NCBI GenBank assembly: GCA_003279455.1
Contig: QCHU01000013.1
Span: 1 to 34,302, forward strand
DNA from: Prochlorococcus sp. AG-402-G19
GTDB lineage: Bacteria > Cyanobacteriota > Cyanobacteriia > PCC-6307 > Cyanobiaceae
Direction of reading: 5' to 3'
DNA: 34,302 bases
This document shows, in pieces, positions 3,018-16,392 of the stretch. A model generated the notes under the pieces. The model was not told the origin of the DNA and made no database searches. It saw only the letters and a program-made list of their open reading frames with translations. Position 1 is the first letter of the stretch; every line of letters begins with the position of its first letter. The position numbers were made by a program, and so were the translations under genes.

Positions 3018-3311
3018 TTATTTACCAATAGCTTTTTGACTCGTACAGGTTTGATATGCCAAAGCTTTAGCAAAGTCATTTGTATCAAGTCCAAACTCTT
3101 CTAATTGTTTCGCATTAAATTTTTCAAGAACTTCAGGGACGGTATAAAGCTCTGAATATGTACGAACACACGAATTTTTATTCCTTGATTCTTGAATGAC
3201 AGGATTGACCCAGCATCCAAATAGAACTAAGAATCCACCAAAAGTAACGACTCTTCTATGGTTTCTCCACCATTCATAACTGTTGAGATTTAATGCTTTT
3301 TTTAAATCCAT
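3018..3311 (-). CDS. small membrane-anchored protein, 97 aa, first gene of the operon
   Basis: I chose the ATG at 3311, which gives 97 residues. The in-frame ATG at 3356 would add 15 polar residues with two unusual aromatic pairs. A basic segment (YEWWRNHRRVVTFGG) precedes one membrane helix at about residues 22-36. The rest is a soluble domain with three Cys residues, two of them in the second half (NSCVRTYS and YQTCTSQKA), which could form a disulfide if it faces the lumen or periplasm. The two following membrane genes are translationally coupled to it. Confidence 0.6.
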   Translation of the reverse strand: MDLKKALNLNSYEWWRNHRRVVTFGGFLVLFGCWVNPVIQESRNKNSCVRTYSELYTVPEVLEKFNAKQLEEFGLDTNDFAKALAYQTCTSQKAIGK

Positions 3312-3387
3312 GAAATAAAGTTTTTTGTCGAAGTCGCAGAACTTGTTGGTTCTCACTCGACATTAGCCAAGAATTGTAAAAACTAAA

Positions 3388-3594
3388 ATGACCTCCTTTA
3401 CATGCCTAATGGTGTGGCTTTGTGTCGCAGTGTTGTTACCCCTGATGCTCTTTATCTGGGCGTTAGAAAATAAAGAACAAGAATTAAAAGGTAGAGAAAT
3501 TATGGGTGGAGCTGGAGAAAGATTACAACTATTTATAATGTCTCCCCGACAACAGTTAGAAGGTGGTCTATACCTAAATAAATACTTTATCTAA
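3388..3594 (+). CDS. small membrane protein, 68 aa
   Basis: A strong hydrophobic N-terminal helix (residues 4-26, LMVWLCVAVLLPLMLFIWAL) is followed by a charged tail. The protein is transcribed away from the three-gene membrane operon, with 76 bases between the starts. The tail from about residue 39 (GGAGERLQLFIMSPR) is less convincing than the N-terminus. A sequence change may have lengthened an originally shorter protein. Confidence 0.5.
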   Translation: MTSFTCLMVWLCVAVLLPLMLFIWALENKEQELKGREIMGGAGERLQLFIMSPRQQLEGGLYLNKYFI

Positions 3595-3595
3595 C

Positions 3596-3703
3596 ATGGC
3601 AAAGGCATTTCGTGTTGATGCAGGATTTGATAACCCTGATGTAAGCCGAACATTTTTGTGGATTCAATTTGGTGTCTTTACTGGATTAAATGTTTTTTTC
3701 TAG
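3596..3703 (+). CDS. tiny membrane-like protein, 35 aa
   Basis: The ATG lies one base after the previous stop. The frame encodes 35 residues: a polar N-terminus containing VDAGFDNPDVSRT and a hydrophobic C-terminal stretch (FLWIQFGVFTGLNVFF). No Shine-Dalgarno sequence is evident, so translation would rely on coupling to the gene before. Short membrane proteins of this size are common in picocyanobacteria, but I recognise no family. Confidence 0.4.
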   Translation: MAKAFRVDAGFDNPDVSRTFLWIQFGVFTGLNVFF

Positions 3704-3892
3704 TTATGTTCCTTTTATATAAATTCAATCCTGCTTTTCATAGTGTGATCACTGGAAGACCTCTATAGCCTCTTCTTAAATGGGTGGCCCATAGCCTAAT
3801 AAGTTCCTTTTTTACGACAATTAAAGTAGTGCTTTCCTACTCCCTACAAGTAAAAAGAAGGATTAGAAAAAGGGTGTAAGAAAGGAGGTCTT
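3704..3892. other. intergenic, nothing recognised
   Basis: About 190 bases without a supported gene. The only signal is the purine-rich ribosome-binding site at 3882-3889 belonging to the next small frame. Confidence 0.4.
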
Positions 3893-3982
3893 ATGAGACT
3901 ATTTACTCCCTTCACCATCCCCAAAAAGGATAACTGCGATCTTTGCAGGATTAAAAGGAATAATCAGAAGAGGGGCAAATAG
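3893..3982 (+). CDS. 29-aa peptide with a CxxC motif and a strong ribosome-binding site
   Basis: AAGGAGG at 3882-3888 stands five bases before the ATG, one of the best ribosome-binding sites in the window. The 29-residue product is basic and has Cys-Asp-Leu-Cys at residues 15-18, a possible metal-binding or redox pair. A hairpin with a T-run overlaps the stop and looks like an intrinsic terminator. The frame therefore has both a translation start signal and an end of transcription, which argues for expression despite its length. It could be a leader peptide, but no downstream plus-strand gene depends on it. Confidence 0.5.
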   Translation: MRLFTPFTIPKKDNCDLCRIKRNNQKRGK

Positions 3983-3994
3983 CCTCTCTTTTTT
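3969..3994 (+). terminator. intrinsic terminator after the 29-aa gene
   Basis: AGAGG (3969-3973) pairs with CCTCT (3983-3987) around a nine-base loop and is followed by six T at 3989-3994. The stem begins inside the last codons of the 3893 gene. Confidence 0.55.
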
Positions 3995-4031
3995 ATCGAT
4001 TGCTTGCCTGCTGCCATACAAAATTTTCAAT

Positions 4032-4056
4032 AAAAAAAGCCCTTATACAAAGAGCT
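4032..4056 (-). terminator. intrinsic terminator for the 4193-4375 gene
   Basis: On the minus strand AGCTCTT (4056-4050) pairs with AAGGGCT (4044-4038), seven base pairs including one G-T, with a five-base loop. Seven T follow (A-run 4032-4038 on the plus strand). It lies about 140 bases after the stop of the minus-strand gene at 4193. Confidence 0.65.
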
Positions 4057-4077
4057 CGTAACATCATCTGATTGATC

Positions 4078-4618
4078 CCCATCACTCAGTGATGATAAAA
4101 ACAATAGTCAATGTAATTAATTCAGTCAAGCAATTAGAGCTAATCCAACGCTTTACTAGATTTAATTCTGTTTTTGGTAGTCGAATGAATACTTAATTGT
4201 GACCAATACGACAACCAAGTTGAATTAAGCCTCGATCTAAAAGTCGACCAAGCTTCAAAGCTGTCGCCTCTTCAACTCGTGAAAAATGAGACTGATTTGA
4301 TGTCAGCCAATTCATTTCATCTGAAGTAATCACTCCAGTAGAAATTGATTTAAGAAAAAGTAATCCAAGATTCATAGAATTAATTCGAAAGAAGTAAAGG
4401 TCAAGCCTCAGGTTGTGCTACCGATGCTTGGACTTTATGAACCAAAAAACTGAGACCCATCACCCAGTCATAGAAACCTTAGTAAGGACTCAGATATTTT
4501 CAAGATCCCATAACACCATATAAAGATTCACATAACAAAACTTCACCATTAGACGCCACATGTAGGGGGGTTGCTTCTTTAAAGAAATGGGGCTAGAAAT
4601 AGTATCCCCATCACCCAG
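4078..4618. repeat. three copies of CCCATCACYCAG
   Basis: The 12-mer occurs at 4078-4089 (T variant), 4456-4467 and 4607-4618. The first copy is extended to the palindrome CATCACTCAGTGATG (4079-4093). After the second and third copies the next 25 bases also resemble each other, with ACC and AGG blocks at matching spacing. The third copy is followed by six T (4646-4651). No protein explains the repeats. They could be regulatory sites or parts of a small RNA family. Confidence 0.45.
4193..4375 (-). CDS. conserved-looking hypothetical protein, 60 aa
   Basis: A compact soluble protein. It begins MNLGLLFLKSISTGVIT and ends in a helix containing the LGRLLDRGLIQLGCRI motif with one Cys. The regular pattern and the good terminator downstream (4032-4056) suggest a real, separately transcribed gene. 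From memory, similar short proteins are widespread in marine Synechococcus and Prochlorococcus, but I cannot name the family. The function is unknown. Confidence 0.6.
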   Translation of the reverse strand: MNLGLLFLKSISTGVITSDEMNWLTSNQSHFSRVEEATALKLGRLLDRGLIQLGCRIGHN

Positions 4619-4762
4619 GCCGTAGGACACCATACCTAGGGTCTTTTTTATTGGTTGATGACTTGGATGGATTTGGAAAAAAGTATCTGTCAAAAGTTGC
4701 TCATCTTGACGAGCAACTAAGACAAAATTCGTTTAGAAGAATCACGTCTATAAAAACAATTC
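4376..4762. other. intergenic region with repeats and a hairpin
   Basis: This stretch of 387 bases separates divergent genes. It contains two of the CCCATCACYCAG repeats and, at 4696-4717, a perfect seven-pair hairpin (GTTGCTC/GAGCAAC, eight-base loop) 45 bases before the DUF3303 start. On the plus strand the hairpin would lie in the 5' leader of that gene. On the minus strand it is followed by TTTT. A 67-codon minus-strand frame across 4490-4693 has poor composition and was not called. Confidence 0.4.
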
Positions 4763-5035
4763 ATGCTCTACATTCAGCATTGGAAATTTAAGCCTGGTTA
4801 TCACCAAAAGGGTGCAGAAAAATTCTTAGCAAGTGGAGCTCCATATGCTGGAGCAGAAATGCTTGGTCGGTATCACGCTCCAGGATCACTTGAAGGTTGG
4901 ATTTTAGTTAAAGCAGAAGATCCAAAAGCACTTTATGAGCATGCTGCTGAATGGGCTGAATATTTAGATTGGGAAACCACTCCAGTATTTACAGATGAAG
5001 AAGCAGGTCCAATTTGCGCAAAAATCTACGGTTAA
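4763..5035 (+). CDS. DUF3303 family protein, 90 aa
   Basis: The start MLYIQHWKFKPGYH, the central GWILVKAEDPKALYEHAAEW and the C-terminal TTPVFTDEEAG match the cyanobacterial DUF3303 family. These are small ferredoxin-fold-like alpha/beta proteins of about 90 residues whose biochemical role is not established. The length is typical and there is no signal peptide. A second, more divergent member lies at 14913-15209 (MQLYIVTWKFE). Composition is balanced and the frame is well preserved, which suggests a maintained core gene. Confidence 0.8.
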   Translation: MLYIQHWKFKPGYHQKGAEKFLASGAPYAGAEMLGRYHAPGSLEGWILVKAEDPKALYEHAAEWAEYLDWETTPVFTDEEAGPICAKIYG

Positions 5036-5133
5036 AGTAAAAACCAAATTAATTACACCTGATGGTTAATTGAATCAATGGGACTGGCATAGGTCAGTCC
5101 TTTTACAATGCTTGTATAAGGGAAGAAGGATTA

Positions 5134-5295
5134 ATGGTTCCAATTTTCGCAACTTCGACACAAGCCAACCTTCTGATTTATGTAGGTGGTGGTGGTTTTG
5201 TTTTATTAGGAGCTTTTTACTTTGGCCGTCTGGTTACATTCTTTTTTCCTAAAAATCCATTAATCAGGAAAGGGAAGGAGAAGAACGATGCCTGA
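5134..5295 (+). CDS. small single-pass membrane protein, 53 aa
   Basis: The ATG at 5134 follows the purine-rich GGGAAGAAGGA (5121-5131). The 53-residue product has a glycine-rich membrane helix (LLIYVGGGGFVLLGAFYFG, about residues 13-31) and a basic tail. Its last eight bases overlap the next start at 5288, so the two are translationally coupled. It heads a run of three short membrane-protein genes. The size recalls low-mass photosystem subunits, but I recognise no named subunit. Confidence 0.6.
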   Translation: MVPIFATSTQANLLIYVGGGGFVLLGAFYFGRLVTFFFPKNPLIRKGKEKNDA

Positions 5296-5419
5296 TGTGA
5301 AATTAAATTCTGGATCTGATGATGTAGGACTGAAATTCAAAATCATTGGTATTTCAGTGACTATTGGCTTAAACGCTATTGTTTTTATTTGGTATTTCTT
5401 CTTCTCAGGTCTTACCTAA
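5288..5419 (+). CDS. small single-pass membrane protein, 43 aa
   Basis: Forty-three residues: a polar N-terminus (MPDVKLNSGSDDVGLKFK) and one membrane helix (IIGISVTIGLNAIVFIWYFF). The start overlaps the previous gene by eight bases, and the upstream GGGAAGGAGAAG (5272-5283) is a good ribosome-binding site. The topology suggests a thylakoid or inner-membrane peptide. The family and function are not recognised. Confidence 0.6.
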   Translation: MPDVKLNSGSDDVGLKFKIIGISVTIGLNAIVFIWYFFFSGLT

Positions 5420-5437
5420 AAGAATCATGAGGGAAGA

Positions 5438-5623
5438 ATGAACTTCGCTGATAACTGGGCAAGAGTTTTTGTTGTGATTACTTTTCTTACTTTTGGAGAA
5501 GCACAAATTATTGGTGGCATCGTTCCCAATCTGATTGCTTTTAGCTTGTTTCTTGGAGCAATTGGATATTTTGCTGCAACAGGAAAAATGGCTGAGATGT
5601 TCGGCTGGAAAAACAAGAAATAA
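5438..5623 (+). CDS. small membrane protein, 61 aa
   Basis: Two hydrophobic stretches (about residues 9-33 and 33-48) are followed by a short polar tail ending MFGWKNKK. GAGGGAAGA at 5429-5437 precedes the ATG. The gene starts 18 bases after the previous stop, so 5134, 5288 and 5438 probably form one operon. The family is not recognised. Confidence 0.6.
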   Translation: MNFADNWARVFVVITFLTFGEAQIIGGIVPNLIAFSLFLGAIGYFAATGKMAEMFGWKNKK

Positions 5624-5686
5624 AGCTATTACTAGCGAGTAAAGACTCAGGAGATCCCGCTGAGATCCCAGTCTCACTTTCCCATC

Positions 5687-5713
5687 AAAAAAGACAGGCT
5701 GAGAAACCTGTCT
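5687..5713 (-). terminator. intrinsic terminator of tRNA-Pro
   Basis: On the minus strand AGACAGG (5713-5707) pairs perfectly with CCTGTCT (5698-5692) around an eight-base loop, followed by T residues (A-run 5687-5691). It begins ten bases after the tRNA 3' end. Confidence 0.75.
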
Positions 5714-5722
5714 CTGACTGAT

Positions 5723-5795
5723 CGGGGCGACAGGATTCGAACCTGCGACCTAGTGCTCCCAAAGCACCCGCGCTACCAAGCTGCGCCACGCCCCG
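5723..5795 (-). tRNA. tRNA-Pro(UGG)
   Basis: On the minus strand the gene runs from CGGGGCG (5795-5789) to CGCCCCG (5729-5723), giving a perfect seven-pair acceptor stem. The anticodon arm is GGTGC-TTTGGGA-GCACT, so the anticodon is UGG. The T-arm contains the expected GGTTCGAATCC. The gene does not encode CCA. A -10-like TACAAT lies at 5810-5805 and a strong terminator follows. The 5' half, from the acceptor 5' strand through position 41, is repeated exactly at 6788-6829. Confidence 0.95.
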
Positions 5796-5804
5796 CCAAC
5801 TAAG

Positions 5805-5810
5805 ATTGTA
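5805..5810 (-). promoter_or_regulatory. putative -10 box of tRNA-Pro
   Basis: TACAAT on the minus strand, ten bases upstream of the tRNA 5' end. It is conserved in the second copy at 6839-6844. No clear -35 hexamer is seen at the expected distance. Confidence 0.5.
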
Positions 5811-5887
5811 GCCCCTGATAGCTGCTAAGAAAATATAAATTCCCTAAAGCTTGACTCAATAATGATCAAATAGAATCATTTAGAGCG

Positions 5888-5910
5888 TTTTGTCACTCGT
5901 TTGTCACTCG
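5888..5910 (+). repeat. tandem TTTGTCACTCG pair
   Basis: TTTTGTCACTCG (5888-5899) is followed directly by TTTGTCACTCG (5900-5910). Related pairs occur at 6705-6726 and 6922-6944. Paired short direct repeats near a tRNA-borne recombination point resemble integrase arm-type sites, but that is inference. Confidence 0.5.
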
Positions 5911-5944
5911 CTATGTCCCTAAAGAAATTAATGAATAGCCAATG

Positions 5945-5950
5945 TATAAA
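5945..5950 (+). promoter_or_regulatory. putative -10 box for the 5985 gene
   Basis: TATAAA lies within GTATAAAT, 34 bases before the ATG at 5985. The same GTATAAAT is kept at 6978-6985, 35 bases before the ATG of copy 2. Conservation between diverged copies supports function. Confidence 0.4.
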
Positions 5951-5984
5951 TAAGTAATATTAAAAACATCGCTTAAAGGGGGAA

Positions 5985-6626
5985 ATGAAAAGTTTACTTC
6001 TTACTCCGCTGCTGCTCACTGGTCTTCAAAGTCCTGCAAATGCTTTGCCTTGGAGCGGAGATATTGTTGAGAAAAATAATGTTGGTGAAAAAGTAATTGT
6101 CAAAGAAACAGCCGTGGAGGTTCAGAAAAAAGGCTGGGTTTCTTTAAACCTCCTCCAAGAAGATGCTTTGAAATTCCTTAAAACTCAACTTGATAAGTCA
6201 AATAGAGAAATAAAAGACTTTGCTAGATACTGCGATGGTCCTAATAAAGATTATTGCAATCGAAAATCTTCAAAAGAGGGTTTAAAAAGTATTTATGAAG
6301 AACTTAAAGAAGATGCAAAAAATATAAAAGACAAATTACCCTTAGAATTTAAAACTACTGAACAAATATCTACAGCTCAAAGCTTATTAGAAGAAGTCCA
6401 TTGGTTTACTATCTATTACACTCCGATTTTTGTTGATTTAAATAATAAGAAAACACCAATGAAGAAGCAGACCGCAACGTGTATCAATCCTCAGATGAGT
6501 GATTATGCCAAAGAGCAATGGTCGAGAACAACTCGTTATTGGTATGGGAAAGAGATATTTCAAATGTCAAAATTTGATAACAACCGATTAGATCAAAAAG
6601 TTTGCGATAAATACGTCAAGTTCTAA
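5985..6626 (+). CDS. secreted or lumenal hypothetical protein, 213 aa
   Basis: A ribosome-binding site (AAAGGGGG, 5975-5982) directly precedes the ATG. Residues 1-20 form a signal peptide ending Ala-Asn-Ala, with probable cleavage before LPWSGDIV. The mature protein is hydrophilic with a charged helical middle (about residues 60-125). Four Cys residues are visible (DFARYCDGPN, DYCNRKS, TATCINPQ, KVCDKY), consistent with two disulfides outside the cytosol. The family is not recognised. It lies between the two copies of the tRNA-Pro repeat, and its promoter, ribosome-binding site and first codons are part of the repeat. It may therefore be cargo of a mobile unit. Confidence 0.7.
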   Translation: MKSLLLTPLLLTGLQSPANALPWSGDIVEKNNVGEKVIVKETAVEVQKKGWVSLNLLQEDALKFLKTQLDKSNREIKDFARYCDGPNKDYCNRKSSKEGLKSIYEELKEDAKNIKDKLPLEFKTTEQISTAQSLLEEVHWFTIYYTPIFVDLNNKKTPMKKQTATCINPQMSDYAKEQWSRTTRYWYGKEIFQMSKFDNNRLDQKVCDKYVKF

Positions 6627-6704
6627 ATGCATCTAATAATCGAATTTCAGGGTGGAATATTTTCTTCATACACGATCTTTTTGAAGCACCCCGTTCTATC
6701 AATA

Positions 6705-6726
6705 TTTTGTCACTCGCTGTCACTCC
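6705..6726 (+). repeat. degenerate third TTTGTCACTCG pair
   Basis: TTTTGTCACTCG (6705-6716) followed by CTGTCACTCC (6717-6726). It lies between the two long repeat copies, just after the 5985 gene. It may be what is left of another copy of the module. Confidence 0.4.
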
Positions 6727-6744
6727 TTAAGGTTTTGTTGCATT

Positions 6745-6769
6745 AAAAAAGCCCTGCTATGACAGGACT
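6745..6769 (-). terminator. intrinsic terminator downstream of the tRNA-Pro half
   Basis: On the minus strand AGTCCTG (6769-6763) pairs with CAGGGCT (6756-6750), seven pairs with one T-G, around a six-base loop. It is followed by six T (A-run 6745-6750). Its sequence differs from the terminator of the intact tRNA-Pro. Confidence 0.65.
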
Positions 6770-6787
6770 ATCGCTTGTCTCAAGTTC

Positions 6788-6829
6788 TGCTCCCAAAGCA
6801 CCCGCGCTACCAAGCTGCGCCACGCCCCG
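6788..6829 (-). pseudogene. 5' half of tRNA-Pro(UGG)
   Basis: All 42 bases equal 5754-5795, that is tRNA positions 1 to about 41: acceptor 5' strand, D-arm, anticodon loop and most of the anticodon 3' strand. The variable, T-arm and acceptor 3' parts are absent, so it cannot be a working tRNA. The upstream -10 box (6844-6839) is preserved and a terminator follows at 6769-6745. A short transcript of about 85 bases could therefore be made. Confidence 0.85.
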
Positions 6830-7032
6830 TCAAATAGAATTGTAGACCCTGGTAGCCGCTAAGAAAATATAAATTCTTTAAAACTTGACTCACCCATGAT
6901 CAAATAGGCTAATTAGAGGCATTTTGTCGCTCGTATTTCACTCGCTATCTCCCAAAGAAAATTAATGCATAGCCAAGGTATAAATCAATAATATAAAAAG
7001 AACCTCGCTTAAAGGGGAAATGAAAAATTTAC
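6788..7032. repeat. direct repeat, copy 2
   Basis: Partner of 5754-5997. It holds the tRNA half, the conserved -10 box, a diverged TTTGTCACTCG pair (TTTTGTCGCTCG at 6922-6933, TATTTCACTCG at 6934-6944), GTATAAAT at 6978-6985 and AAAGGGG-AAATG at the end. Beyond the fifth codon it no longer resembles copy 1. Confidence 0.85.
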
Positions 7033-7094
7033 GATGGTATTTAGTTTTGTATAGTTTTAATCATTTGCATGTTAACGGGGGGTTGTGCTTATAA
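7020..7094 (+). pseudogene. 24-codon frame behind repeat copy 2
   Basis: The duplicated ribosome-binding site and ATG open a frame that ends after 24 codons (MKNLRWYLVL...). Only its first four or so codons match the 5985 gene. The remainder shows no signal peptide cleavage site or other pattern. It is probably a truncated cargo gene or a junction artefact, though a short peptide cannot be excluded. Confidence 0.45.
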
Positions 7095-7174
7095 GGCCTA
7101 ATCTTTCACATTAAATCAATGAACTCGTGGGAATCCTTCCAGATGATTAAAATACCTGTAAAAGATTTAAACCA

Positions 7175-7336
7175 TTGGCTCCTCATTTAGAAAACCCTTT
7201 TTTAATATTAATCTGGCACTTACTGGTGGGATACCTTCTTACTGTTAGCTGTGATTGGAACTGGATACCATTGACAAAAGATGAGAAGCAAAGAGGTCCC
7301 TCTCTTGACCAAATCAGAGGTAAGATCTTCGGCTAA
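7175..7336 (+). pseudogene. 53-codon frame lacking ATG, possible gene remnant
   Basis: The frame contains a hydrophobic stretch (PFLILIWHLLVGYLLTV) and then a polar, protein-like tail (WIPLTKDEKQRGPSLDQI) ending before TAA at 7334. No ATG or GTG is in frame; the only plausible start is the TTG at 7175. The tail looks like real coding sequence, so this is either a small membrane protein with a TTG start or the 3' remnant of a larger gene. Confidence 0.4.
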
Positions 7337-7359
7337 TAAAAATGAGATAGTAAAATAAG

Positions 7360-7377
7360 TTTTGATGGGCATCAAAA
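7360..7377. other. hairpin
   Basis: TTTTGAT (7360-7366) and ATCAAAA (7371-7377) enclose GGGC. It lies just after the 7175-7336 frame. There is no T-run, so it is a weak terminator candidate. Confidence 0.3.
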
Positions 7378-7410
7378 TTGAATCATGATAAATTTATTTA
7401 TTAAGAAGAA

Positions 7411-7455
7411 AACTCATAAATAAAGTTGCTTTTAAAGCAAGTAGAGTTCTTTTTT
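7411..7455 (+). terminator. possible terminator with extended stem
   Basis: TTGCTTT (7426-7432) and AAAGCAA (7434-7440) pair around a single base, flanked by AACTC (7411-7415) and GAGTT (7444-7448). C and a T-run follow. The spacing is imperfect, so this is a tentative call. Confidence 0.35.
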
Positions 7456-7578
7456 ATTCACCAAATATAAACTTAAAATAAGTAGAAATTATAAAAGTAC
7501 GGTTAGACGGCTCTCAATACTCCACAACAAAAAAAATTTTGTATTATCTTTTTCTTTTACCTGCGAGTACAAGGTCAA

Positions 7579-7695
7579 ATGGCTCAACGAATTAACGTTG
7601 TATTGAACTCAATCCCCTCGGGCTGTAGAGAACTGGCAGAATTTGCTTTCTTCTGTGGTGTCGGCTTTACTTTTGGGAGCCTGGGCCTAATATGA
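7579..7695 (+). CDS. possible 38-aa small protein
   Basis: An ATG-started frame encodes MAQRINVVLNSIPSGCREL and then a short hydrophobic, Gly/Phe-rich end (EFAFFCGVGFTFGSLGLI). Two Cys residues are present. AAGG at 7571-7574 is a modest ribosome-binding site. Nothing else explains this stretch, but the length makes the call uncertain. Confidence 0.35.
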   Translation: MAQRINVVLNSIPSGCRELAEFAFFCGVGFTFGSLGLI

Positions 7696-8136
7696 CCCGT
7701 AAGATGCCTTAAAACAACACCCTTCTTACTTCTATTTTGATTATTGAGCTATACACAAGACAACCGTGCTCAAAATCAAAAAATAGAAAATCAAGAAATC
7801 CTTTTAAACTAATTCACAATTCAAAACTTGTATTGCTGAATAAGATCCACACAATAGGAATCTTTAAATTGTATTTATAGTGAATAAACATCTCATAAAT
7901 TATTATTTATTGAGGTTCAAGAAAAATTAAAAATCGAATTTTGACTTGTATAAAATGATAATCAAACCTTTTTTTATCTCATATCAAGCTAGCTTCTTTC
8001 CATTATTATTTTAAATATATGAAAATTTTATGAAATTTTAAATACATATATAAAATAATAGCCTTAGCAATATCCCATTATCTTCACGAATAGAATAAAA
8101 ATCTTTCATAATTTACATTTGGATTAGGGTTGGTCA
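7696..8136. other. AT-rich non-coding region with a long inverted repeat
   Basis: About 440 bases without a credible gene. The visible structure is an imperfect inverted repeat: CTATTTTGATTATTGAGC at 7732-7749 pairs with GCTCAAAATCAAAAAATAG at 7768-7786. The arms are 18-19 bases, with small gaps and an 18-base loop. The rest is A/T-rich with no clear signal. Confidence 0.45.
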
Positions 8137-8535
8137 GTGAAACTGGTACCAAATTTTGCTGAGTTACTTCATGAGATTAAATTACCATCTCCAGAAAAAT
8201 GCTTCTTAATTGAGGATGGAGATGAAAAATATATAGGGAAATGGATAAGAAATGGAGAGATAACATGTGAACTTGAACAACTCTTCCATTGGATCAATAT
8301 GAAGTATAAACTCAAAAAAAACAATCTATCCAACGAAGAAAGGCAAATTGCCGAAGATGTAAAAAAAAGATTTCCAACAGAGCAATGGCGTGTGATAAAA
8401 ATTTTTAGCGATCATCAACGAAAATATCGATATTACAAAAAGGCCATAGAAGACGTAAAAAGTAGAACTTCACCTCGCATGAGTGAACAAGCAATTATGA
8501 CCATATTCAGGCCAGGCTGGAGTATAAATACTTAG
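8137..8535 (+). CDS. hypothetical basic protein, 132 aa
   Basis: Uses a GTG start at 8137. The N-terminal part (EIKLPSPEKCFLIEDGDEKYIGKWIRNGEI) looks globular. Residues 65-110 are strongly basic and helical (KKRFPTEQWRVIKIFSDHQRKYRYYKKA), which suggests nucleic-acid contact. There is no signal peptide or membrane segment. I recognise no family. It stands alone in a gene-poor stretch downstream of the tRNA-Pro duplication, so it is probably accessory. Confidence 0.5.
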   Translation: MKLVPNFAELLHEIKLPSPEKCFLIEDGDEKYIGKWIRNGEITCELEQLFHWINMKYKLKKNNLSNEERQIAEDVKKRFPTEQWRVIKIFSDHQRKYRYYKKAIEDVKSRTSPRMSEQAIMTIFRPGWSINT

Positions 8536-8575
8536 TATGGTATAATTACCTATAAGATTTAGGATTTAAATTCTC

Positions 8576-8668
8576 GTGATTGAAAAGTACCCCTTACTTC
8601 CTTTTATTATTTTTGCAGGAGCATTAATAAGCACAGCTACAATCGGTTTACCTGTATTTGCGGGATAA
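8576..8668 (+). CDS. possible 30-aa membrane peptide
   Basis: A GTG-started frame encodes 30 residues with a single hydrophobic helix from residue 7 (LLPFIIFAGALISTATIG) to the end, PVFAG. Size and pattern match low-mass photosystem or cytochrome subunits, but I cannot assign one. The only support is the composition. Confidence 0.35.
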   Translation: MIEKYPLLPFIIFAGALISTATIGLPVFAG

Positions 8669-9036
8669 TCTGAATATAAATTTAATTTACTTCATTTAGC
8701 CTATCTATCAAAGATAAAGATAGATTTAAAATAATATTCCAATATCATAACCAACTTAAAATAGTAAAAAAGCAAAAACAGTTAATTAATTTACATTATC
8801 ATTTTGATAAAATAGTAGACCAATAGTTAAACAAGAAATAAGATGAATATAAAAATATTGAAAGGTAAACCCAGTTAAGCCAGGCTGGACGCTTATTACC
8901 ATTATTCATTGAATCCAATAAATACATCCTCTATATAATATACTTTATAAATATGATATTTGACTATAACCTTGGAAGGCTTAACGTTAATTCTAAAAGT
9001 TGAAAACCAAAAGTAATTACATAAGAGGAGGTATTT
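8669..9036. other. non-coding, AT-rich
   Basis: No gene is seen in 368 bases. GCCAGGCTGGA at 8879-8889 repeats the same 11 bases found at 8511-8521 near the end of the 8137 gene, suggesting a small local duplication. The ribosome-binding site of the next gene (AAGAGGAGG, 9023-9031) closes the region. Confidence 0.4.
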
Positions 9037-9537
9037 ATGAAAAAAAAATACAAGTTTCTAAAAAAACACGTAAATGAATTTACCAAAACATTCGAAAGCC
9101 TAAGAGGAAACAAATGGTCTTTGAATTTTCCAGTTTTTATTTTTGATAGAGATTGGTTTAGACTTAAAAAAGTAAAACTCTATGATTTAGCTAGAGAACT
9201 TCAGCCAGACAACTCACAAGAAGCCCCTGAACTAATTCAATACCAAAAATTACTAAAGGATGGGCACGATCATTTGCTTGCCATTCAAGAATGTTGGAAT
9301 GAATTTGGTATTGAAGACTTTCATCGATCTCTCAGAAACTCTTCTAAATGGAAATCAAAAGGTAATAACGGATGGACTTTTAAAAAATACGTTGAACTTC
9401 TAACAGGATATAGAAATATTATTGAAAAAAAAGAAATCAGCATCCCGATTATTATTCTGGGAAGAAATTCAAAAGAAGATCATAAACTTGAATGGATAAG
9501 CCATGATTTCATTTCAGAACTAACTATCAAAGATTAA
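9037..9537 (+). CDS. hypothetical protein, 166 aa
   Basis: A strong ribosome-binding site (GAGGAGG, 9025-9031) precedes the ATG. The protein is soluble and basic at the N-terminus (MKKKYKFLKKHVNEF). It is rich in aromatic residues and contains a His-Asp-His (KDGHDHLLAIQE) near residues 75-86. There is no signal peptide, membrane helix or recognised catalytic motif. It is the longest intact frame in the gene-poor stretch between the tRNA-Pro duplication and the SulP gene. The function is unknown. Confidence 0.6.
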   Translation: MKKKYKFLKKHVNEFTKTFESLRGNKWSLNFPVFIFDRDWFRLKKVKLYDLARELQPDNSQEAPELIQYQKLLKDGHDHLLAIQECWNEFGIEDFHRSLRNSSKWKSKGNNGWTFKKYVELLTGYRNIIEKKEISIPIIILGRNSKEDHKLEWISHDFISELTIKD

Positions 9538-9568
9538 AACATATAAAAACTAATCTCTCACAGTACAT

Positions 9569-9766
9569 TCAAGCAATAGTTAAGTCGTCAGATCTAGTCC
9601 CCCACTCAGTGTCTTCGAGAAGGTCAGAGTAACAAGAAGCATTTACCAAGTTATATTTCTGAAATTTCCAATCTGAATCTTCAAGGTAATCTGAATACTC
9701 GAATGTTTTGGCAAGAAGAGAGAATTCCTTACTAAAAGGGCACATAAAACTTATGCATTTTTTCAA
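9569..9766 (-). CDS. possible hypothetical protein with an internal repeat, 65 aa
   Basis: The frame shows two similar ten-residue blocks, YSDYLEDSDW (about residues 24-33) and YSDLLEDTEW (about 46-55), separated by 12 residues. Three Cys residues lie in the protein, at about positions 4, 9 and 45. The repeat argues that this is real coding sequence rather than a chance frame. I recognise no family. It converges on the 9037 gene, with 31 bases between the stops. Confidence 0.4.
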   Translation of the reverse strand: MKKCISFMCPFSKEFSLLAKTFEYSDYLEDSDWKFQKYNLVNASCYSDLLEDTEWGTRSDDLTIA

Positions 9767-9909
9767 TCATTCACACTATTTAAGATAAAAGCAACTAAAG
9801 TTTATAATTCCTAAATATTTAAATAGAAGAATTAAGTCCCAATACAGTAGAGAATTTCAACACAGCACCTGGTATACGATATTAAATTGAAAAAACTTTT
9901 TCAAAAAGA

Positions 9910-10194
9910 ATGGTTAATGAAAAAAATGGCGAAATTGACTTCGACAAACTTCCAGAAGGTGTTTATTTCTTTACAGGTCAAGAGGGATTTGTGAAAGTTG
10001 AAGTAGATAATGAAGGTAATCAAGCTTGGGATCTACATAATTGGTTTGCCTCATTAGACCCAGACACAAATGAGGCTCAACATCAAAAAATCATTCAAGA
10101 CATCAAAAGAAGATTAAATGCTGAAACCGGAATGGTTAATCCAACAAAAAAGTTAGCAAAAAGAATTTTCACTAATCCTTTTAAAAACAAGTAA
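9910..10194 (+). CDS. hypothetical protein, 94 aa
   Basis: An acidic N-terminal two-thirds with a beta-rich look (EGVYFFTGQEGFVKVEVDN) is followed by a basic C-terminal tail (KKLAKRIFTNPFKNK). There is no membrane segment. The ATG is the first in frame, and AAAAAGAA just upstream is a weak ribosome-binding site. It converges with the membrane protein gene at 10206, with 11 bases between the stops. The family is not recognised. Confidence 0.55.
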   Translation: MVNEKNGEIDFDKLPEGVYFFTGQEGFVKVEVDNEGNQAWDLHNWFASLDPDTNEAQHQKIIQDIKRRLNAETGMVNPTKKLAKRIFTNPFKNK

Positions 10195-10205
10195 AATACA
10201 TAAAT

Positions 10206-10547
10206 TTATTTAAAAAATAAAAATATTTGATTTACTGCTAATCCAATTAGGAAATATCTCAATAATGTACACCATGCATATAAATAAACACACTCATAAT
10301 CTGACTTAGAAAGTTCATCACCTTTCCGCATTAACAAAAGATTAAAACGATAGTTTGAATTATTTTTAACAATAAATACAAAAGATAATATCAATGTTTT
10401 CAAAATACTTGTGTTTATCAAAAAAATCAGAGCCACAACAAAAGAGAGATTTGAGATGAAGTCAAAAGAGGGAATAATGGCAGCAGGTAAAACAAGCAAA
10501 TTAGATAAAATATAAACGACACTGCTTTGCTTGATCCAAGAAAACAT
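10206..10547 (-). CDS. small polytopic membrane protein, 113 aa
   Basis: Hydrophobic segments occur at about residues 10-27, 30-47, 47-60 and 95-112, giving three or four membrane passes. A basic loop (NNSNYRFNLLLMRKGDELSKS) lies in the middle. There is no motif I can assign. The ATG at 10547 is the first in frame. The 255 bases upstream (10548-10802) are AT-rich and hold the promoters for this gene and the divergent one at 10803. Confidence 0.5.
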   Translation of the reverse strand: MFSWIKQSSVVYILSNLLVLPAAIIPSFDFISNLSFVVALIFLINTSILKTLILSFVFIVKNNSNYRFNLLLMRKGDELSKSDYECVYLYAWCTLLRYFLIGLAVNQIFLFFK

Positions 10548-10802
10548 CTTTAAAAAATATAAATATTTATATCTCTAGCAAACAATCAAAGAGATGGCAA
10601 TTTTTAAATCAAAAATTAATAAAAAGAATTCGATCCTAATAAATAGTATTATCAAAAGCACTAAAGCTTGGCATTATCAAACAATCACACACAATAATCA
10701 GAAATATGATTCAATGATCTGATAAATAATTATATATTTTTTTCTTCATATTTCATAAGAGCATTTCTAAGAAGTTATAATTATAAAACTACAAAATACA
10801 AA

Positions 10803-11051
10803 ATGAGGATATTACTTCTGCTTTCTATATTCATATTAGCTATTTTATTTATTGGGAAAAAAATTTTTTATTCTGCAAAAAGGAATCTGTTCAAAGATCA
10901 AGCTGTATGGTCTGGTAAGGATATAACAATTAAATATAGCAAATCAAAAAAAATAGCAGAATCAAAAGGAGTTGATAACTATTTAAAAATCATTGCTGAC
11001 GAATCAAAAATCTTTTTAGAGGAGCAGTCTATAAAAAATGAGGAAGAATGA
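10803..11051 (+). CDS. N-terminally anchored small protein, 82 aa
   Basis: Residues 2-18 form a membrane anchor or uncleaved signal (RILLLLSIFILAILFIG), followed by a basic linker. The C-terminal region is charged and helical (KGVDNYLKIIADESKIFLEEQ). No lipobox Cys is present. The family is not recognised. It is divergent from the membrane protein at 10206. Confidence 0.5.
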   Translation: MRILLLLSIFILAILFIGKKIFYSAKRNLFKDQAVWSGKDITIKYSKSKKIAESKGVDNYLKIIADESKIFLEEQSIKNEEE

Positions 11052-11215
11052 AAAAATAGAACTCAAAATAGCCGAAAGAATAAAGGGAGGTTAAATAAAA
11101 ATAATTGACTCATATCTTCAACTATAATAGGGTAAATCATTTAATAAATATGTACTATCACTTGTTTTCCATAAATAATTTATATTTCATATCAACAAAG
11201 ACAACTATACTTAAT

Positions 11216-11377
11216 ATGACAATAAATAACCCTCTCTTTATATTTGCACTAATAACAGTAATTTGGTTCATTCCTGGAATTATAGTTAGACGCTTTAATG
11301 AATCAAAGCAGATAAAGATAAAGGAAAAAAATCAAGCTGATGCTATAAGAAAGCTATACCCTAAGTCCAAAGATTGA
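11216..11377 (+). CDS. small single-pass membrane protein, 53 aa
   Basis: I place the start at the ATG at 11216. This gives one membrane helix (NPLFIFALITVIWFIPGIIV, residues 5-24) with a basic, helical tail. The frame is open to an ATG at 11105, but the added 37 residues are Asn/Tyr-rich and unlike a natural N-terminus. From memory, short proteins of this shape with an IPG motif in the helix recur in Prochlorococcus. The function is unknown. Confidence 0.55.
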   Translation: MTINNPLFIFALITVIWFIPGIIVRRFNESKQIKIKEKNQADAIRKLYPKSKD

Positions 11378-11574
11378 TTGGATTAATATTGATAAATACA
11401 TTTGACCTAACAAACCCTCACAACTTTATATATTAATACAAAATTAGAGTTTTATTTATTCAATGAAATAGTATTAATTCTTGATTAATTTCAAAAAGTC
11501 ATAAAACAAATAACTTTTAGTATTACGAGTATGATTTTAGATACAATGAGTTATTATTAAAAAAAAGGCAGTTA

Positions 11575-11850
11575 ATGATGATAAGGAGACTAGGACAATA
11601 TGGTGGGTATTTACTAAGTGGAATATTAATAGCATGGCTAATAAATCCAATAGCAGCTTTAGCATTTATTAAGTTTTTTCTTAAAATGACTTTATTAGTA
11701 ACTATTCCCATTGGAGGGGCTTATCTTCTAGACAAAATTATCCTTTTAAAGCATCAAAAGTTATGGAATATAATTTTCCCAACATGGACAATAATTAGTA
11801 TTTACTTTAGTTTCAGGTTGGTTAAATTAATAGAAAACCATATTAATTAA
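11575..11850 (+). CDS. small polytopic membrane protein, 91 aa
   Basis: Three hydrophobic segments (about residues 10-32, 34-56 and 65-83) are separated by basic loops (KIILLKHQK). The start may be the first or second ATG at 11575/11578. AAAAAAAGGCAG upstream gives a weak ribosome-binding site. No family is recognised. The opposite-strand frame across 11523-11711 is a shadow. Confidence 0.5.
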   Translation: MMIRRLGQYGGYLLSGILIAWLINPIAALAFIKFFLKMTLLVTIPIGGAYLLDKIILLKHQKLWNIIFPTWTIISIYFSFRLVKLIENHIN

Positions 11851-12062
11851 ATATTTATAGATTAATATTTTTAGTAATTATTCTTGTCTAAAGACTAGTT
11901 CAAATAAGAATCCATTCATACCTCAATTTAAAAGCCATAAAATAAAGAACTCAAACTATCCTCTTCAAAATACTTAGCATTTCTAGAAGTTAAAATATCC
12001 AACCATCTCGAAATAATTAATGCTTTATGGATGATGATGAATACAGTTGAAATTTGAACAAC

Positions 12063-12308
12063 ATGGTCCTCCCTTTCCTTACCGCAATATTTTTCCCTGA
12101 TTATGGTTACCAAGGTATCCCTTGGGATTTGTATTTACTTCATTTCTTCTTCTTTGCGATTGTGATTCCATTTCATGTAATTATTTTTGCAGCTCGTAGT
12201 GCTCAGAAGGTCAAGCCTAACGGAGTGAAGGACTGGCTTAAGTGGGAGACCAATGCAACGAAAAACGACTTAACTTCAAGATTTCCAAACAATTTCCCTA
12301 CCGCTTGA
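12063..12308 (+). CDS. membrane protein, 81 aa
   Basis: The ATG at 12063 gives 81 residues; an ATG three codons earlier at 12054 is also possible. One strongly hydrophobic stretch (WDLYLLHFFFFAIVIPFHVIIFAA, about residues 21-44) is followed by a basic, Trp-containing soluble tail (GVKDWLKWETNATK). The tail has a coding-like composition. Topology predicts one long or two short helices. The family is not recognised. Confidence 0.55.
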   Translation: MVLPFLTAIFFPDYGYQGIPWDLYLLHFFFFAIVIPFHVIIFAARSAQKVKPNGVKDWLKWETNATKNDLTSRFPNNFPTA

Positions 12309-12412
12309 CTAAACCAAGAGCCTTTTAAAAATGTCTGAATTTATCAAGGTGCTACAACTTCATTAAATTTGGGCAATTTTAGGTTTATATATATACCTGC
12401 ATCTAAAAAAAA

Positions 12413-12556
12413 ATGCTTCATTTGCCATTCTTAACCTTTGCCTTGGGAGGAGGAAGCCTCTCAGCAACAATTGTCGGTGTTGTATCCCTTGTTCTTTTTG
12501 GACTAGTTGGTGTAATTGCTGGACCTAATCTATCTAAATTTGATTCTGATGCTTAG
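12413..12556 (+). CDS. small membrane protein, 47 aa
   Basis: Forty-seven residues. A Gly/Ser-rich N-terminus (LTFALGGGSLSATIVG) runs into one hydrophobic helix (VVSLVLFGLVGVIAGP), and the tail is acidic (KFDSDA). The layout resembles low-mass photosynthetic membrane subunits. About 100 bases after its stop is a strong terminator (12660-12701), supporting a transcribed gene. No named subunit is recognised. Confidence 0.55.
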   Translation: MLHLPFLTFALGGGSLSATIVGVVSLVLFGLVGVIAGPNLSKFDSDA

Positions 12557-12659
12557 AGAAGTAGATCATAGGTAAATCTATGGGCTACATCTCCTAACAA
12601 AAAGATTTTTAGATTATCAAAATCTATCTAACGAATCAAACTCTTAAATAAAAAGATCT

Positions 12660-12701
12660 AAATCCATCAAGTGTTCATACTCTTGGTGGATTTTCATTTT
12701 T
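12660..12701 (+). terminator. strong intrinsic terminator
   Basis: AAATCCATCAAG (12660-12671) pairs along its whole 12 bases with CTTGGTGGATTT (12682-12693), one G-T included, around a ten-base loop. T residues follow at 12697-12701. It most likely ends the 12413 transcript. Confidence 0.75.
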
Positions 12702-12992
12702 ATCTCAAATGAAATTGAAAAACAAAAAATCAAGAACTAGAAAATCAATGGCTAAATTCAAAAACTATCTATAAAATTTAAATTTAGAGCGATAAAAAGG
12801 TAGAACTTATAAGTAAAACTTATAGCTAGTATGACTATACGATATAATGCTTGATTAGTTATGGCTCTGGCTTATAAGTTTATATGTACAAAATTTACAA
12901 AATCAAGTCAAATGGAAATGAATCCTTATAGGCCTTTGATACAAGCTTTTCAAAAAATCTACAGAAACTTTAAGTAAAGGATTTGCAAAAAA
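12702..12992. other. intergenic, nothing recognised
   Basis: About 290 AT-rich bases between the terminator and the stop of the convergent SulP gene. No gene or clear hairpin is seen. Confidence 0.4.
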
Positions 12993-16320: not shown

Positions 16321-16392
16321 TGGGTCGCCTGAGATTCGAACTCAGGACCAGCCGGTTAAAAGCCGGATGCTCTACCACTGAGCTAGCGACCC
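16321..16392 (-). tRNA. tRNA-Lys(UUU)
   Basis: On the minus strand GGGTCGC (16392-16386) pairs with GCGACCC next to the discriminator A at 16321. The anticodon arm is CCGGC-TTTTAAC-GCCGG-like with anticodon TTT, and the T-arm contains GAGTTCGAATCTC. CCA is not encoded. The cloverleaf is complete, so it should be functional. Confidence 0.95.

Follow-up and report, generated by a model that had tools for sequence, protein, structure and literature searches.

The smallest steps of gene gain and loss are hard to see in Prochlorococcus, where most flexible genes lie in genomic islands. The tycheposons of these bacteria, which Hackl et al. reportedly described in Cell in 2023, are said to carry a deep-branching tyrosine recombinase next to an attachment (att) site and to insert at one of seven tRNA genes. 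Integron cassettes are one-gene mobile units without a recombinase that form arrays at a fixed site and are moved by a recombinase supplied in trans. The consulted portion of PMC10872708 gives tycheposons a length of 4-200 kb, and it also treats additive flexible genomic islands, in which small cassettes occupy tRNA genes of other marine bacteria (PMC7771536, in part; PMC10872708) and a tRNA-Lys island ranges from 330 bp to 42 kb (PMC10872708). Islander, in the available portion of its report, counts 159 of 3919 islands that leave a 5' fragment of the tRNA gene, and rejects candidates under 2 kb (PMC4383910). Here we analyze a 34,302-nt stretch of Prochlorococcus sp. AG-402-G19 (contig QCHU01000013.1, positions 1 to 34,302 of the forward strand; hereafter the window), in which a 1034-bp unit at 5754-6787 is joined to the gene for tRNA-Pro(UGG). 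From comparison with related genomes, we consider this unit very probably a non-autonomous integrative cassette that would be moved in trans by a tycheposon-like tyrosine recombinase.

An earlier note on this DNA, made from the letters alone, had described two direct repeats of about 245 bases beginning in the anticodon arm of tRNA-Pro, and had proposed a mobile unit of about 1,034 bases. The repeats are as it described them: 5754-5965 and 6788-6999 are 84% identical without gaps over 212 nt, with a period of 1034 bp, and in aligned form they are 85.4% identical over 247 columns (E 5.9e-75). The first 42 bases, tRNA positions 1-42, match at 42/42 positions between 5754-5795 and 6788-6829. The repeat runs outward from the anticodon loop, past the tRNA 5' end and into the upstream flank, and in both copies we read a -10-like TACAAT on the tRNA strand, a pair of boxes, GTATAAAT, a G-rich ribosome-binding site (RBS) and ATGAAAA, the first codons of a divergent gene. 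Copy 1 has two perfect boxes, at 5889 and 5900, and leads into a 213-aa open reading frame (ORF); copy 2 has degenerate boxes at 6923 and 6934 and leads into a 24-codon frame at 7020. We also identified a part that the earlier note did not contain, a left arm at 6690-6787 with its own box pair. The unit and its neighbors are as follows.

5722-5795, minus strand: intact tRNA-Pro(UGG), called tRNA-Pro(TGG) by ARAGORN with Rfam agreeing; its 3' part is chromosomal and its 5' half is supplied by the unit
5754-6787: the whole unit, 1034 bp
5754-5767: crossover core in the anticodon stem-loop, where 3'-half and 5'-half copies overlap in relatives; their 3'-half-only tRNA copies stop near 5767
5754-5795, minus strand: unit-borne tRNA 5' half, 42 nt identical to 6788-6829
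5796-5880, minus strand: right arm with the tRNA promoter region, an element-type flank that differs from the flank of empty-site genomes
5889-5910, plus strand: right-arm boxes, two tandem TTTGTCACTCG with a period of 11, putative integrase arm sites
5985-6626, plus strand: cargo gene for a 213-aa protein with a signal-peptide-like start (by eye)
6690-6787, plus strand: left arm, common to units of relatives and ending at the second core
6706-6726, plus strand: left-arm boxes TTTGTCACTCG and CTGTCACTCC, measured at 81 and 71 bp from the core
6750-6769, minus strand: terminator-like hairpin in the left arm; by eye, comparable stems are present in the left arms of further units in the genus
6788-6829, minus strand: displaced tRNA 5' half, the distal end of the unit
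6830-7032, plus strand: right arm of a second, decayed unit, with element-type flank, degenerate boxes (6923/6934), RBS and start codon
7020-7094, plus strand: 24-codon remnant frame of the decayed unit (read by eye)
7115-7340, plus strand: conserved chromosomal backbone, which all 20 fetched relatives have 5' of the tRNA

Because both arms carry boxes, a circle of the 1034-bp unit would have its core flanked by boxes on both sides. No integrase had been seen in the window, and the unit had for that reason been called non-autonomous or a remnant; in agreement, a PF00589 profile search of the window's own assembly, from a genome that is 67% complete, gave three matches and none on the window contig. 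Integrase-family fragments lie elsewhere in that genome (G000:C22:2379-2774 and G000:C9:18047-18211).

The mobile-unit proposal came with a suggestion to look in relatives for empty sites and other cargo, and with the statement that it would fail if every related genome held the same two copies with the same genes and without gain or loss. We searched 41 genomes of the window's genus (g1), obtained matches in 38, and fetched the locus from 20 relatives. All 20 retain the backbone 5' of the tRNA, at distances from 79 to ~5,600 bp and with different inserts or none between, so the condition for failure does not hold; empty sites and other cargo are both present. The backbone lies 79-170 bp from the tRNA in four relatives (L042, L047, L049, L053), and a native flank directly adjoins the tRNA in six empty-site genomes (L045-L049, L053). 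Seven fetched relatives have a distal 5' half (L034, with two, and L035, L036, L038, L039, L043, L044), giving core-to-core lengths of 636 to 2714 bp. Between the window and L035, the units match at their two ends alone, so that different cargo stands between shared ends. In L034 (second copy), L036 and L038, the native flank stands beyond the distal half, scoring 31, 25 and 22 against a maximum of 12 among 300 random 90-mers, as insertion at the core predicts. Behind the distal halves of L035, L043, L034 (first) and the window stands element-type flank instead, marking these as apparently stacked or decayed units. This corrects the earlier note on one point: copy 2 is not the empty target site, and is the right end of another, decayed unit. 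Other decayed units are found in L037, L041 and L042; L044 has a third flank type at both of its copies, also present at L050 and L051, and the distal half of L039, which contains an indel, was left out of the scoring.

The crossover point can be placed by comparing the two kinds of partial tRNA copy. In g1, 3'-half copies lie on one side of the tRNA, to ~90 kb, and 5'-half copies on the other, and the two overlap in ~14 anticodon-loop bases, consistent with the anticodon-loop crossover that had been proposed. The unit-borne half, identical over 42 nt to the displaced one, likewise agrees with the idea that insertion rebuilds the tRNA 5' half. The small units sit 5' of the tRNA, on the rarer side; 3' of this tRNA-Pro, g1 appears to hold a second, larger island stack: G007, G005, G003, G016 and other genomes have many 3'-half copies, several with an integrase within ~1 kb.

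Similar units occur beyond the genus. When 400 genomes of the family were searched for the box pair (at most 3 mismatches), 19 places in 16 genomes matched, against 2 places for a reversed control. ARAGORN found tRNA-Pro(TGG) in 11 of 13 box-pair loci tested; L121 lies inside a transporter gene and looks like chance, and L110 is without a whole tRNA. In a second genus, g18, which we take to be the high-light type of Prochlorococcus, 173 of 266 genomes contain the 40-nt tRNA 5' half, 42 of the 173 in two copies or more, with copies split over contigs in at least five of these. We read 24 g18 loci and obtained 28 intervals between successive halves, from 585 to 8566 bp long, 23 of them under 3 kb. 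The L166 unit, in an isolate, is 1154 bp long. More than one unit in a row is present in five loci (L204, L206, L208, L210, L034), and a sulfotransferase-like unit stands in first position in L208 and in second position in L204. L201 and L208 follow other intervals, and the stretch fetched for each contains no intact tRNA.

Both arms of these units carry boxes at near-constant distances from the core. Of 37 units measured, 30 have a left box 80-82 bp away from the core (g18, 23/28; g1, 5/7; Synechococcus-like, 2/2), a count in which a few matches may be chance since the pattern allows a mismatch, and in which the 81 bp of L161 is less independent because that locus has no tRNA half at the far end and its core-like ACTCCCAAAG was chosen after the box. 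The right boxes are found mostly at 135 and 146 (g18) or 137 and 148 (g1). Box sequence varies between units (TTTGTCACTCG; TTTGTCRCTA; CTCACTAA; TTTGCGTACA in L210; TAGGCCGCAA in L044), and the arms of one unit tend to share a variant: the mean best 10-mer identity between arms was 9.41, compared to 8.72 when arms were permuted among all units and 8.91 within genus, with 0/5000 permutations as high in either case, though the permutation controls kinship among units only partly, and in one unit the best shared word is not a box. The boxes are best read as putative integrase arm sites, in a lambda-type attP pattern on both sides of the core. The arms of L214 are unlike each other, and this locus may be two fused elements.

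Integrases that could use such sites are encoded at the same tRNA in relatives. In Synechococcus-like loci L107-L109, L119 and L120, an integrase-like ORF of 395-429 aa directly follows the boxes, as such an ORF also does in L257, L259, L264 and L267. The Synechococcus-like ORFs fall below the cut-off of the Pfam integrase model (best E 3.4e-4); PHROG integrase models match 3/3 of those tested (5.3e-18 to 8.1e-16), and their alignment contains the R, R-H, G-H and Y positions of tyrosine recombinases. At a threshold of 1e-20, 59 of 266 g18 genomes match a Synechococcus-like integrase. Among 30 g18 integrase loci, 18 have a whole tRNA-Pro with the integrase on its 5' side, nine adjoin a 3' half and three show neither. 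Elements lie between two 5' halves in L287 (8612 bp), L288 (8388 bp, with an integrase of 413 aa) and L289 (8451 bp), and further integrase-bearing elements are found in L215 (8340 bp) and L210 (8566 bp); all five encode an integrase and a DUF3987 or VapE helicase, and L210 also a capsid-protease fusion. The earlier note had suggested searching genomes for the repeat module together with an integrase. Relatives have same-site integrases on both sides of the tRNA; in g1, none was found that goes with TTTGTCACTCG boxes.

The ends of these larger elements resemble those of the small units. When the last 100 bases of L288, its left end, are compared with small units, 15 of the latter agree at 79-92 positions. 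In 21 of 26 small units, at least 69 of 100 positions agree with one of the five integrase-bearing elements, where the random maximum was 45. With the same left ends, the small units look like derivatives served in trans, and they probably use the integrase of larger same-site relatives.

Several further observations concern these larger loci. With its integrase, VapE-like helicase and capsid-protease fusion, the L210 (G480) element resembles a small phage satellite or what is left of a prophage. In L287 (G543, oriented 3098-12754), the 8612-bp integrase-bearing element has class I-type boxes and is followed directly by a 1044-bp class II cassette in one array; the L215 integrase and the L209 unit likewise belong to class II. 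L291 (G359) and L290 have a 27.7-kb interval between two 5' halves, with an L210-type integrase and boxes at the ends. L162 contains a pair of 5' halves, its stretch includes no whole tRNA, and its integrase is split in two frames; L160 has a second integrase on the 3' side. We rejected the idea that 5'-side integrases form one clade: a tree of 25 rows, in which long branches make single placements uncertain, requires at least two side switches, with 18 rows labeled 3'-side and the labels of L129 and L140 given without a checked adjoining tRNA half.

Taken together, these comparisons suggest the following route. A circle containing the left arm, core, tRNA 5' half, right arm and cargo would recombine at the anticodon-loop core of tRNA-Pro(UGG), with catalysis in trans by a tycheposon-like tyrosine recombinase bound to the boxes of both arms. 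On integration, the chromosomal 3' half would receive the cassette's 5' half and promoter, so that the tRNA would stay whole, and the old 5' half with its promoter would be shifted to the far end of the insert. Repeated integration would produce tandem arrays. The left-arm hairpin would end transcripts from the displaced tRNA promoter, a suggestion that is weak alone: the hairpin search gave 2 sites versus 1.4 in shuffles, with a fold z of 0.50 and no RNA support. As judged from sequence, the comparison establishes conserved ends, exchanged cargo, empty sites and native flank behind the distal half, along with matching boxes at fixed spacing on both arms and integrase-bearing same-site elements with the same kind of ends; from these we infer that an integrase binds the boxes and works in trans, and that the window unit can still move.

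Some units have moved recently. L199 and L203 share a unit at 99.7% identity over 2579 bp, tRNA included, between fetched flanks that do not align, and the L165/L212 unit is 98.6% identical compared to 96.05% for the rpoB region and 77.5% for the right flank. Recent transfer is thus shown for some units only and not for the window's, whose movement in its own genome we deduce from relatives.

A number of results weigh against the cassette interpretation. The units of L034 and L039, with shared cargo, are 91.4% identical versus 92.1% for rpoB, those of L202 and L205 90.4% versus 94.6%, and L202 and L207 have left flanks that are 99.2% identical and units that are only 85.1% identical. No left box lies at 80-82 bp in 5/28 g18 and 2/7 g1 units, and L036, which has no boxes at its ends, was left out of the 37-unit box count. 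Two units, the first of L204 and the second of L210, match no autonomous left end above background. Across the 41 g1 genomes, the TTTGTCACTCG pair occurs only in units without an integrase, and no integrase with TTTGTCACTCG boxes was found there, the window's own genome being 67% complete; the g1 integrases adjoin 3' halves and are at best ~40% identical to the Synechococcus-like integrase. We detected no circular or free copy in viral contig collections, whose long-contig sets are a poor place for 1-kb circles. Among the 20 matches listed per search of phage records (703 and 2 more records lie beyond those), there was no unit copy, and all were phage tRNA-Pro genes.

Of the alternative explanations, the one that survives best is that the unit is an immobile, degraded remnant, an autonomous 8-13 kb element reduced to two ends and a captured gene. 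Decayed units do exist, as listed above, several same-cargo pairs do not exceed their rpoB identity, and the right ends of L044 and L050 retain frames after the boxes that read by eye like an integrase start (W..L...RSLARGW.VQE), as if these two were deletion-derived from integrase-bearing elements. We nonetheless consider this explanation unlikely, as units are repeatedly small (in g18, 23 of the 28 intervals are below 3 kb) and retain two arms with a constant spacing, cargo falls into many clusters, units form tandem arrays, and a 99.7% identical unit is found in two genomes with unlike flanks.

We find it less plausible still that homologous recombination at the conserved ends swaps the cargo, in the manner of replacement islands, leaving the integrase without a present role. 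The window and L035 units align only over 1-230 (89%) and 907-1034 (84%), with unrelated middles, just as such exchange would produce, and the 99% left flanks and 85% units of L202/L207 fit it equally. What it leaves unexplained are the empty sites, the native flank behind the distal half, the arrays of two or three halves and the matched boxes at fixed distance. Homologous exchange of cargo may act in addition to integration.

To a similarly low degree we credit the idea that the boxes bind a transcription factor or regulate the cargo, and are not integrase arm sites. In the window they do precede the cargo start, and in larger elements the integrase start, where a regulator could bind. The matching left-arm pair, 71 and 81 bp from the core, however, is distant from every start codon, a given box variant is present on both arms of its unit, and some 3'-side elements of g1 (L035, L044, L048) possess 11-bp tandem boxes of their own at ~100 bp from the core. 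A simple tandem duplication of the tRNA-Pro flank by homologous recombination, followed by divergence and involving no mobile element, would look like the window's two direct copies, 1034 bp apart and 85% identical, if no relatives were known, but is hardly credible given copies that start in the anticodon loop in several genera, a left arm that is not part of the tRNA flank, different cargo between identical ends and native flank displaced behind the distal half, and for the family it is refuted by empty sites and cargo exchange.

The cargo of these units is often a single gene, and it is diverse. The 213-aa window protein has no match in Pfam or PHROG, and its homologs are found in four other genomes of 300 in the family: the one in G051 is a broken frame ~1.1 kb from tRNA-Pro(TGG), on the tRNA 3' side, and the remaining three have no tRNA within the fetched stretch. 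An AlphaFold model of the protein, built from 2 sequences, had a mean predicted local distance difference test (pLDDT) score of 58 and was not used. Other g1 units encode a 58-aa protein, a prepilin with a C-type lectin domain, a tetratricopeptide repeat (TPR) protein and several proteins of unknown family. Named families in g18 and the other lineages include a YadA anchor, an inverse autotransporter, a phosphoribosyltransferase, a helicase and a mannosyltransferase, and the ORFs of all units, g1 included, form 30 BLASTP clusters, some of which are element genes or frames over arms. Orientation and start of the cargo differ between units. The earlier description of the repeat as a ready expression cassette accordingly holds for the shared start region in the window and does not generalize, as cargo faces either way and the boxes are better read as arm sites.

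In five units (L197, L204, L206, L208, L209), the cargo proteins have a near-identical signal-like start (MKRLLLPL..ALPTAVNA) and unlike mature parts, as if the secretion start had been retained and the remainder exchanged. L211 (G482, oriented 525-1569 and 2083-2280) has an intact phosphoribosyltransferase gene in the unit and a broken copy behind it; the protein resembles the product of the gene after the distal half in L287 and L289, and the unit may have captured a neighboring chromosomal gene. A second tRNA gene in the window, tRNA-Lys(TTT), lies at 16321-16392 on the minus strand.

With units of ~1 kb whose ends and crossover point are defined, single gains and losses can be counted in the genomes of individual cells. 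Tools that require an integrase or at least 2 kb miss such units. Their movement is testable with one integrase and two short DNA sites. With insertion on the 5' side, the promoter of tRNA-Pro would be replaced repeatedly, with a measurable cost or benefit.

How, then, does this system compare with those already described? The window has what marks a tRNA island, an intact tRNA at one end, a displaced fragment at the other and a crossover within the tRNA, and lacks an integrase of its own. Tycheposons, treated also in the consulted portions of PMC10872708 and PMC11389934, are alike in their site-specific tyrosine recombinase, tRNA target, cargo, satellite-like larger forms and host bacteria. 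As far as those portions go, they differ from the small units, which are mostly 0.6-2.6 kb, have no integrase or other element gene, and rebuild the tRNA 5' half. The window unit, at 1034 bp, is below the tycheposon length range and has no deep-branching recombinase; the same-tRNA integrases of its relatives score below the Pfam cut-off and match PHROG integrases. Additive-island cassettes are likewise small, located at tRNAs, bounded by direct repeats of part of the tRNA and found in streamlined marine bacteria; in the available portion of PMC7771536, the repeats in Methylophilaceae are the last 20 nt of the tRNA, whereas the Prochlorococcus units supply the 5' half and promoter, have both attP-like arms mapped, and are accompanied by integrase-bearing elements with the same ends.

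Islander's 5'-fragment islands place the 5' fragment and the anticodon-centered crossover in a known class, but most units here are outside its 2-kb limit, and integrase-less tandem units are not its model in the part of the report consulted. PICMI and other phage satellites, in the accessible part of PMC10803314, are also small integrated elements that depend on a helper, and the 8.3-8.6 kb elements resemble them in their integrase, their DUF3987 or VapE helicase and, for one element, capsid genes; the small units differ in having no replication or packaging genes. Already known, then, are tRNA-anchored islands, anticodon crossover, 5' fragments and small tRNA cassettes in other marine bacteria. 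Among the papers listed by searches of the open-access literature, we recognized none that describes such 5'-side integrase-less units, a scope that leaves the original tycheposon paper outside. What seems new is the combination: integrase-less 5'-side units of sub-kb to few-kb size, with a two-armed att and in arrays, with integrase-bearing partners in several genera.

Integron cassettes are alike in being small and recombinase-less, in forming arrays at a fixed site and in the recombinase in trans that we propose here. They differ in that no attC hairpin or IntI was seen here, with no dedicated attC search made, and in that a lambda-like double-stranded att is implied. We tentatively suggest, as a possibility that we hold at somewhat less than even, an integron-like cassette system in picocyanobacteria, in which tRNA-Pro(UGG) would be the fixed site, the integrases of 8-13 kb satellite-like elements would serve tiny one- or two-gene units in trans, and each insertion would swap the promoter of an essential tRNA and add a secreted or surface protein.

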